Below, piece by piece: positions 5,305-17,633 of a stretch of 64,000 nt of DNA. Each line of letters opens with the position of its first letter. The stretch's first letter is position 1. This DNA is from an uncultured Dehalococcoidia bacterium (GTDB lineage Bacteria; Chloroflexota; Dehalococcoidia; Lucifugimonadales; UBA1127), in NCBI GenBank assembly GCA_951812285.1, contig OX638292.1:1323279-1387278 (forward strand), written 5' to 3'. Both the position numbers and the translations under genes were made by a program. Under the pieces are notes generated by a model. The model had not been told where the DNA came from and searched no databases. It worked only from the letters and a program-made list of their open reading frames with translations.

Positions 5305-5397
5305 TGGCGGGAGTGCGAGGGAGTCGAACCCACCCGCCCCGACACGAGGCGCAACGGATTTGAAGTCCGCAAGGGCCACCGGGCCCCATCCACTCCC
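5305..5397 (-). tRNA. selC: tRNA-Sec (UCA anticodon)
   Basis: The minus strand folds as a selenocysteine tRNA. The anticodon arm has the loop CTTCAAA, giving anticodon UCA, which reads UGA. The D-arm is a long 6-bp stem (GGGGCC/GGCCCT) closed by a 4-base loop, a hallmark of tRNA-Sec. The variable arm is long (CGCCTC/GGGGCG, loop GTGTC). The T-loop is TTCGACT. The acceptor stem has GGGAGTG paired with CACTCCC, discriminator G and an encoded CCA at 5305-5307. One G-G mismatch at acceptor position 8 and one T-T in the T-stem are imperfections. It lies between thioredoxin and an unknown gene. selA, selB and selD are not in this window. Confidence 0.93.
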
Positions 5398-16290: not shown

Positions 16291-17502
16291 TTACCTGCTG
16301 AAGGTATAGGTGAACAAACTGAAGTCCGGCGAGTTGGTGCTCAACCGAAGCTCAGCGCGGCCCTGCATCGGACTCTGGATCACGTTGTACATGCGCGGTC
16401 CATCAATATTGAGGACCGTATTGCCCTCGCCGTCCTCCTTGACGTCCTTGCCGCGGTGTTCGACGGGCACGGGCTCGCCGTCCAGCGTCACGATTACCGG
16501 GAATGGGTCGCCGCCCGTCGGCCGCACGACGACATTGACGCTGCGAGCACTGTAGTTGATGGCAATGTAGTCCTCGAAGTTATTGGAGGACCGGCCGTGG
16601 GTCACGCTCTCGCTGTCGATGCCCCAGAGGCCGTGCAGGTAGAACCTGCCGTCCTCGTAGTCACCCGGGTCGCTGAACTGGATGGGAGTGCTGTCCCTGA
16701 CAGACACGTCGTTGCCCAGGTATTTCCGGGTGCCCCACGCGCTGCCTGCATAGATCTCGTGGGTCCGTGGCTCGCCCGAGGGAGGCGCATCGCCCTGCTC
16801 AGGCACCACACCGCCGACGGGAATGTGGGAGATGTCGTTGCCGGCCTCTTCCAGCAGCGCGCGGATCCAGAGCTCAGTCTCAAGGTAGGCGCCCTCGCCG
16901 ATGTGGTGGAACCGCGCCTCTCCGTTCTGGTCCATGAGGAACTTGTGGGGCCAGTATCGGTTCTTGTAGGCCCTCCAGGTGTTGAAATCGTTGTCCATGG
17001 CCACCGGCCACGTTATCCGCTCCCGAACCATTGCTTCTCGGACGTTCCCCTCGTCCTTTTCAAACTCGAACTCCGGTGCGTGGACGCCAACGATTGTGAG
17101 CCCGTTGGCGGCGTACTTCTCGTTCCAGTCGCGCAGGTACGGAAGCGTTCTCAGACAGTTAATTCAGGTGTATGTCCAGAAGTCCACCATGACAACCTCA
17201 CCCTGCAGCTCCGTCATGGTGAGGGGTGGGCTGTTGAGCCACTTGGTGAGCCCGGTGAACTCCGGCGCCTGGTCCGCATCGCTCCCAGTGGCCGCCGTGA
17301 TCTCGACGCCACGCTGCAGCGCATCTTCGAGCGCGCTGATCTTCGGCGCCTCCGGCTCGACAGGCGCCGCCGGTGCGACGGCCGCAGCCTCGCCGGGCTC
17401 CGCCGCCGTCGTCGCGTCGCTGTCGCCGCCGGAGCAGCCCGCAAGGCCAAGCGTCGCCACCGCCGCCGCAAGGGCGATGATGATTCCGGTCCGACGTTTC
17501 AC
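16291..17502 (-). CDS. Selenocysteine thioredoxin-like lipoprotein (DipZ C-terminal-like)
   Basis: This 403-residue exported protein reads through one in-frame TGA. GTG at 17502, seven bases after GGAGG, opens a signal peptide with lipobox LGLAGC. A linker and thioredoxin-like domain follow. VVMVDFWTYT is followed by TGA at 17164-17166, then INCLRTLPYLRDW. The redox motif is therefore Sec-Ile-Asn-Cys (Sec113) where relatives have CxxC. The frame continues unbroken to TAA at 16291. The distal part (YWPHKFLMD, then IGEGAYLETELWIRALLEE and a beta-rich C-terminal domain) matches DipZ/TlpA-type proteins. A tRNA-Sec gene is in the same window. Conventional annotation would give two fragments or a pseudogene. 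The likely role is thiol redox chemistry outside the membrane. Confidence 0.9.
17164..17166 (-). other. In-frame TGA, predicted selenocysteine codon
   Basis: TGA replaces the first cysteine codon of a CxxC redox site. Both flanks are in one frame and match one protein family, and it is the only interruption. Downstream a short CGC/GCG stem with a GU-containing loop, inside GUC/GAC, is a possible but weak SECIS element at 8-36 bases after the TGA. Confidence 0.88.
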
Positions 17503-17633
17503 AGACACTCCTCCTTTCCCGAATATTGCTCAATGCTCAAGTGTCGTAATTCCAGTATACGCCGTATGTGACCGCAGTAGTAATGCGGGCCGACTAATGG
17601 TGCTTCGGCGCCGCTGCCCCGCAATTGCGCGCG

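Follow-up and report, generated by a model that had tools for sequence, protein, structure and literature searches.

A predicted lipoprotein selenoprotein with a DipZ C-terminal-like fold in an uncultured Dehalococcoidia bacterium

The window analysed here is a 64,000-nucleotide stretch of DNA from an uncultured Dehalococcoidia bacterium (assembly GCA_951812285.1, contig OX638292.1), the genome of which is a single contig of 2.86 Mb and is 94% complete. On the minus strand, two open reading frames of the window join into one frame that runs from 17502 to 16291, closes with TAA (16293-16291) and contains only one internal stop, a TGA at 17166-17164 in the surroundings FWTYT-TGA-INCLRTLP. The preferred start is GTG 17502, as a GGAGG (17510-17514), by direct reading its likely Shine-Dalgarno sequence, lies 7 bases upstream; an alternative GTG at 17508 is separated from the GGAGG by 1 base only. 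With the start taken at GTG 17502, the TGA is codon 113, and a 405-residue reading that we used for Pfam searches and column numbering begins two codons earlier, at GTG 17508. Out of 404 codons, the TGA falls on the one that specifies the catalytic cysteine, that is, the first Cys of a TlpA/DipZ-type CxxC site, just as the original prediction had it in describing one frame interrupted by a single TGA. The second Cys of the site, Cys116, is encoded by TGT at 17155-17157, hardly varies among relatives (column C118 when counted from GTG 17508) and would be the resolving cysteine. On the basis of its frame, Pfam domains, relatives and signs of selection, we describe 16291-17502 as a predicted selenoprotein gene.

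Both redoxin-type Pfam models, PF08534 and PF00578, scored above their cut-offs, the latter over residues 79-197 of the 405-residue reading (AhpC-TSA/Redoxin, TlpA-type; 16918-17274, minus strand), and the active site reads U-I-N-C, a UxxC motif. This domain is followed by a Thioredoxin_10 domain as in DipZ (PF17991, residues 249-403, 66.6 bits against a cut-off of 27.1; 16300-16764, minus strand). The ResA model PRK03147 gave 57 bits, below its cut-off of 170. The best solved relative by sequence was 2hyx, the C-terminal part of Mycobacterium tuberculosis DipZ (E 2e-48, residues 76-349). An AlphaFold2 model built from 83 sequences had a mean pLDDT of 84.9, with redoxin domain blocks at 88-98, and Foldseek also placed 2hyx first for this predicted structure (E 8.3e-31 over 332 columns, with a TM of 0.79 when scaled to target length). 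Full DipZ includes an N-terminal CcdA-type membrane domain. The corresponding model, PF02683, was absent from the protein and was not found in the genome, and we have therefore filed the protein as DipZ-C-terminal-like rather than as DipZ. The earlier description 'DipZ-like' thus holds for the fold, with a redoxin domain preceding Thioredoxin_10 and a match to 2hyx, but not for the CcdA membrane half. At the N-terminus, a signal-peptide-like stretch is followed by the lipobox LAGC, whose cysteine is Cys23 (17434-17436, minus strand); both were read by eye, and LAAC stands in the same place in one congener, G004. These features suggest that the protein is a lipoprotein, probably exported and lipidated.

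The machinery needed to insert selenocysteine is encoded in the genome. The tRNA-Sec gene that had been noted in the same window is present at 5305-5397 on the minus strand, with anticodon UCA, as called by ARAGORN and by Rfam model RF01852 (5309-5397, 72.9 bits). A search for selA, selB and selD, which the original prediction had proposed as a check, recovered all three above curated cut-offs, with 541 bits for selA, 380 bits for selD and 313 bits for selB (345 bits with neighbours in frame). The selD gene carries an in-frame TGA of its own, HCAG-TGA-AAK, at a usual Sec site of SelD. Of 30 genomes tested for selB, 28 had a match over the cut-off, among them all 10 in which the TGA form discussed here occurs; its presence is consistent with decoding but hardly discriminating, because it occurs nearly everywhere in the clade. 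In some bacteria, UGA can be read by a Cys-charged, UCA-reading tRNA, and such decoding would suit both the cysteine that relatives have at the site and the weakness of the SECIS signal (see below). However, the UCA tRNA of the window is a standard tRNA-Sec by its Rfam score, and selA and selD are present. We therefore consider it very unlikely that the codon is read as cysteine.

Selenocysteine at codon 113 is further favoured by relatives within the genus. In a family search of six genomes, the TGA form was found in three of the five genomes of the genus: the source genome, G003 (93% identity) and G004 (82%). In G002 and G005 the sequence is instead FWTYT-C-INC, and the codons at the site (17164-17166 in the window, minus strand) are TGC and TGT, respectively. 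The flanking genes match the window in all four congeners, showing that the TGA and Cys forms occupy one locus. Past the TGA, dN/dS (NG86) was 0.078 against G003 and 0.163 against G004, and 0.213 between G003 and G004, and the first 60 codons had no nonsynonymous differences among the three TGA-form genes. Before the TGA, in the part that comprises the signal peptide, the linker and the first portion of the domain, dN/dS was 0.352-0.380; over the 40 codons just before it, values were uneven (0.20, 0.50 and 0.21) and rest on few changes. The UGA and the frame beyond it have thus been kept under selection in three genomes, as is expected of a bacterial selenoprotein.

The Cys-form genes of the genus showed disruptions of their own. 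In G005 (L157) a TAG stands at a conserved Trp codon, and in G002 (L158) the frame breaks; both are draft assemblies, and the disruptions may be assembly errors or may reflect loss of the gene. In the tree, the G005 and G002 genes are joined by P0019 and P0018, which are intact Cys proteins. Further stops or frameshifts in close relatives had been named in advance as a sign of decay; they do occur in the genus, but only in these two Cys-form genes and in none of the three TGA-form genes.

A decaying gene, in which the TGA is a true nonsense codon or a miscall, would account for a stop that cuts the frame within the redoxin domain, for the disrupted Cys-form copies in the G002 and G005 assemblies and for the want of a clear SECIS. 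Yet the identical TGA occurs in three separately assembled genomes, and in a dead gene the sole stop would not stay at the catalytic Cys position, as it does in this genus and again in three other tree groups (see below). The dN/dS of 0.08-0.21 past the TGA, with an unchanged protein sequence over the next 60 codons, is a strong argument against decay. A pseudogene or sequencing error is hence highly improbable, and the view that readthrough is likelier than a pseudogene is supported by this selection together with the same TGA in two congeners.

Selenocysteine at this site appears to extend beyond the genus. Matches were found at E ≤ 1e-60 in 92 of 393 genomes in a search of the class and at E ≤ 1e-40 in at least 161 of 250 genomes in a search of the order. 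A TGA at the same site was also seen in short proteins terminating after the redoxin domain (G285, G226, G340, G184, G301, L101 and L106). In total, the TGA was present at this site in 10 genomes and four tree groups, the genus included, a count that leaves out four matches of G394. A tree of 59 redoxin-domain rows, 11 of them Sec rows with the G184 copy represented twice, requires four Sec/Cys changes, at least three of which are forced by well-supported branches, with a bootstrap range of 4-4. Two candidates for the TGA form were rejected, as G034 has its TGA before the domain and Cys at the site, and G185 also has Cys at the site. In G285, G226, G340 and G184 (L148-L151), the short Sec redoxin gene is the immediate neighbour of a full-length paralogue of the Cys form (FWTYTC[IV]NC), and the NHL gene of these four genomes has no stop. 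Selenocysteine seems to move between redoxin genes.

The protein database contained 5134 matching proteins. Among the best 120 of these, 102 had Cys at the site, one (P0111) fitted neither site pattern, and 17 were shorter than 300 residues and start only past the site; one of these 17 stubs, P0004, is a cluster marked as the window's own. The expectation that homologues carry Cys at residue 113 was accordingly borne out by all but one of the 103 longer proteins in this set and by both syntenic Cys-form orthologues. For P0001-P0015, a TGA is deduced from the positions at which the fragments start. Annotation appears to miss such genes, given that 17 of the 120 best database hits are C-terminal stubs. 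Gene callers do yield fragments of this kind (P0001-P0015, P0020 and P0023), but a separate gene or reinitiation from ATG 17031 can be dismissed as most improbable, as the cut would fall within one thioredoxin fold, fragment starts vary among relatives and the Cys relatives P0016-P0019 are single frames. The TGA on the one catalytic-Cys codon, its recurrence at this position in two congeners and the database stubs that start past the site are together more than chance. We conclude that the minus-strand gene 16291-17502 very probably encodes a membrane-anchored selenoprotein with a Sec113-I-N-Cys116 site, and we count it as a high-confidence predicted selenoprotein.

The original prediction had also pointed to the 60 or so bases past the TGA as the place to look for a bacterial SECIS element, and there nothing distinctive emerged at the usual distance. 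A published model (PMC13188914) specifies a loop of 3-9 nt with a G within its first two positions, 16-37 nt past the UGA, and an MFE of -7.5 or lower; our own constrained scan was wider, allowing loops of 3-14 nt that start 12-37 nt past the TGA. These hairpin scans identified a near hairpin at 17115-17146 (minus strand) of -10.1 kcal/mol, the 9-nt loop of which is placed 28 nt past the TGA; it lies at the usual SECIS distance and within the loose published limits. It resembles what is seen at Cys-site controls, 24 of 94 of which have a more stable qualifying hairpin and 44 of 94 of which reach -7.5. The 60 nt past the TGA show no excess of structure, since an energy as low was reached by 705 of 1000 synonymous shuffles. 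The mean stability of five distinct Sec sites was lower than that of Cys sites (-8.2 and -12.6, respectively), and alifold gave no consensus hairpin across the distinct Sec sites, with 169 of 200 random Cys sets scoring as low. We also scored a GU/GG-loop signature, which is no independent test because it was drawn from the very Sec genes scored: this site gave -0.7, the other eight Sec sites of the genome gave -7.0 to -11.5, all 29 NHL-type Sec sites of the order (one from the source genome) gave -7.0 or lower, the short Sec forms (L101 and L106 left aside) gave -2.8 to -6.3, and 3 of 94 controls reached -8.

Further downstream, distal windows contained a 9-bp hairpin of -14.7 kcal/mol with its loop starting 62 nt past the TGA (17085-17110, minus strand), a speculative SECIS candidate that was found after looking. 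Of 1000 synonymous shuffles, 15 were as low in the same window, as were 4 of 108 Cys sites; when any 35-nt window within the 150 nt past the site was allowed, 25 of the 108 Cys sites were. We treat it as a lead only. Synonymous change was also reduced in this region. Relative to G003, it affected 0 of 39 same-residue codons in the 40 past the TGA and 49 of 308 elsewhere, and relative to G004 it affected 5 of 39 codons past the TGA and 76 of 264 elsewhere. No dip was seen in a pair of Cys paralogues compared in the same way (4 of 37 and 30 of 334). We do not take this constraint as proof of a SECIS, because the comparison was post hoc and slow change is also seen in the codons that immediately precede the TGA. 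A broader scheme, which we offer tentatively and judge rather unlikely as a whole, is that exported DipZ/TlpA-type thioredoxins of Dehalococcoidia-type bacteria swap Cys and Sec repeatedly at a single catalytic residue, that the UGA is decoded without a near SECIS hairpin such as the genome's other Sec genes have, via a hairpin about 45-65 nt downstream or by a relaxed SelB, and that the lipoprotein works outside the membrane without CcdA. If a near SECIS is truly absent, the gene tests how far a bacterial SECIS can shift.

The gene is one of several Sec candidates in its genome. In total, 8 of 11 AhpC-TSA matches had a TGA at the catalytic-Cys position. Three of these sites are peroxiredoxin-like (FTGG-U-T, NTPG-U-T and GGGN-U-T), and the rest comprise TTW-U-PTC and ATW-U-PTC in one tandem frame, a U-PPC redoxin, an NHLRC2-like FC-U-VNC and the gene of the window. 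The tandem frame (L165 and L166, G000:C1:1672202-1673302, in the source genome outside the window) has two TlpA-type domains and two TGA codons, with a strong GU/GG-loop hairpin past each TGA, and is a candidate double-Sec lipoprotein. Another four of the eight TGA-bearing matches are AhpC-TSA genes outside the window (L160, L161, L163 and L169). The source genome is thus predicted to hold a selenoprotein-rich redoxin set.

The NHLRC2-like gene, also outside the window (L028 1492-2985, G000:C1:1127058-1128548), combines a thioredoxin domain with NHL and has its TGA at FWTFC-U-VNC. Its family had matches at E ≤ 1e-100 in 134 of 250 genomes of the order, with 12 rows free of stops and the rest having one TGA (one also a TAG). 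When 30 loci were read, the site was TGA in 29 and TGC in 1, and the TGA genes have in common a near-invariant hairpin core, CCGCAGTTGCGG. A Sec NHLRC2-like family is apparently order-wide.

As to function, the UGA would be read as selenocysteine by the encoded SelA, SelB, SelD and tRNA-Sec, and the product would be a lipid-anchored, outward-facing selenol/thiol-disulfide oxidoreductase. The Sec113 selenolate may act as the nucleophile on a disulfide (or an oxidised thiol) of an exported client to form a mixed selenenyl-sulfide, which Cys116, by analogy with its family, would then resolve. A reductant would next be needed to restore the selenenyl-sulfide. Three models for candidate donors, PF02683 (CcdA/DsbD_TM), PF13386 (DsbD_2) and PF07884 (VKOR), had no match in the genome; in 14 control genomes the same searches found matches in 10, 10 and 3, respectively. 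The genome lacks these CcdA, DsbD_2 and VKOR matches even though it encodes several exported thioredoxin-like proteins.

That selenocysteine occurs in thioredoxin-like proteins was already known, as the original prediction had stated. A 2026 catalogue (PMC13188914) counts 119 Sec families or subfamilies, among them redoxin (PF08534) and TlpA-like UxxC forms, and thioredoxin-like UxxC selenoproteins are shown in passages of PMC1794560, PMC2398784 and PMC1088965, where DipZ did not turn up; PMC12013277 had none of six terms looked for. PMC13188914 nowhere uses the words DipZ, NHL or Chloroflex in its text and names no NHL family. Passages of PMC4959059, a paper from a search on selenocysteine in Dehalococcoidia, concern formate dehydrogenase. 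Searches of open-licence literature for SAR202 with selenoprotein returned nothing, and those for DipZ with selenocysteine returned a paper on GH126. Whether the DipZ-type lipoprotein form had been described was left undecided in the original prediction; we did not find it with Sec in the accessible text of the 2026 catalogue or of the other open-licence literature searched. The gene represents an additional predicted architecture among bacterial selenoproteins, in which a lipoprotein combines a UxxC site with the two-domain fold of the DipZ C-terminus, and its natural set of Sec and Cys orthologues at one syntenic locus makes the gain from Sec directly testable.

Several known systems resemble this protein. 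The redoxin (PF08534) and TlpA/thiol-disulfide isomerase (cd02966) UxxC selenoproteins in Table 1 of PMC13188914 also have Sec first in the motif; the table describes them by domain and motif only (representative HEU0032618.1) and does not name DipZ, and they may overlap with the form described here. Human NHLRC2 and the NHL thioredoxins (PDB 6GC1) share a related thioredoxin domain and a DFWT-type approach to the active site, but have NHL repeats where this protein has Thioredoxin_10. ResA/TlpA-type oxidoreductases (for example, PDB 1ST9) are membrane-anchored and have the redoxin fold (Foldseek E about 1e-10), but are without Thioredoxin_10 and carry Cys where this protein has its predicted Sec. 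DipZ of M. tuberculosis (PDB 2HYX and 5CYY) has redoxin and Thioredoxin_10-type domains in the same order; by comparison, the protein described here has Sec, by prediction, in place of the first Cys, is without the CcdA-type half and is a predicted lipoprotein.
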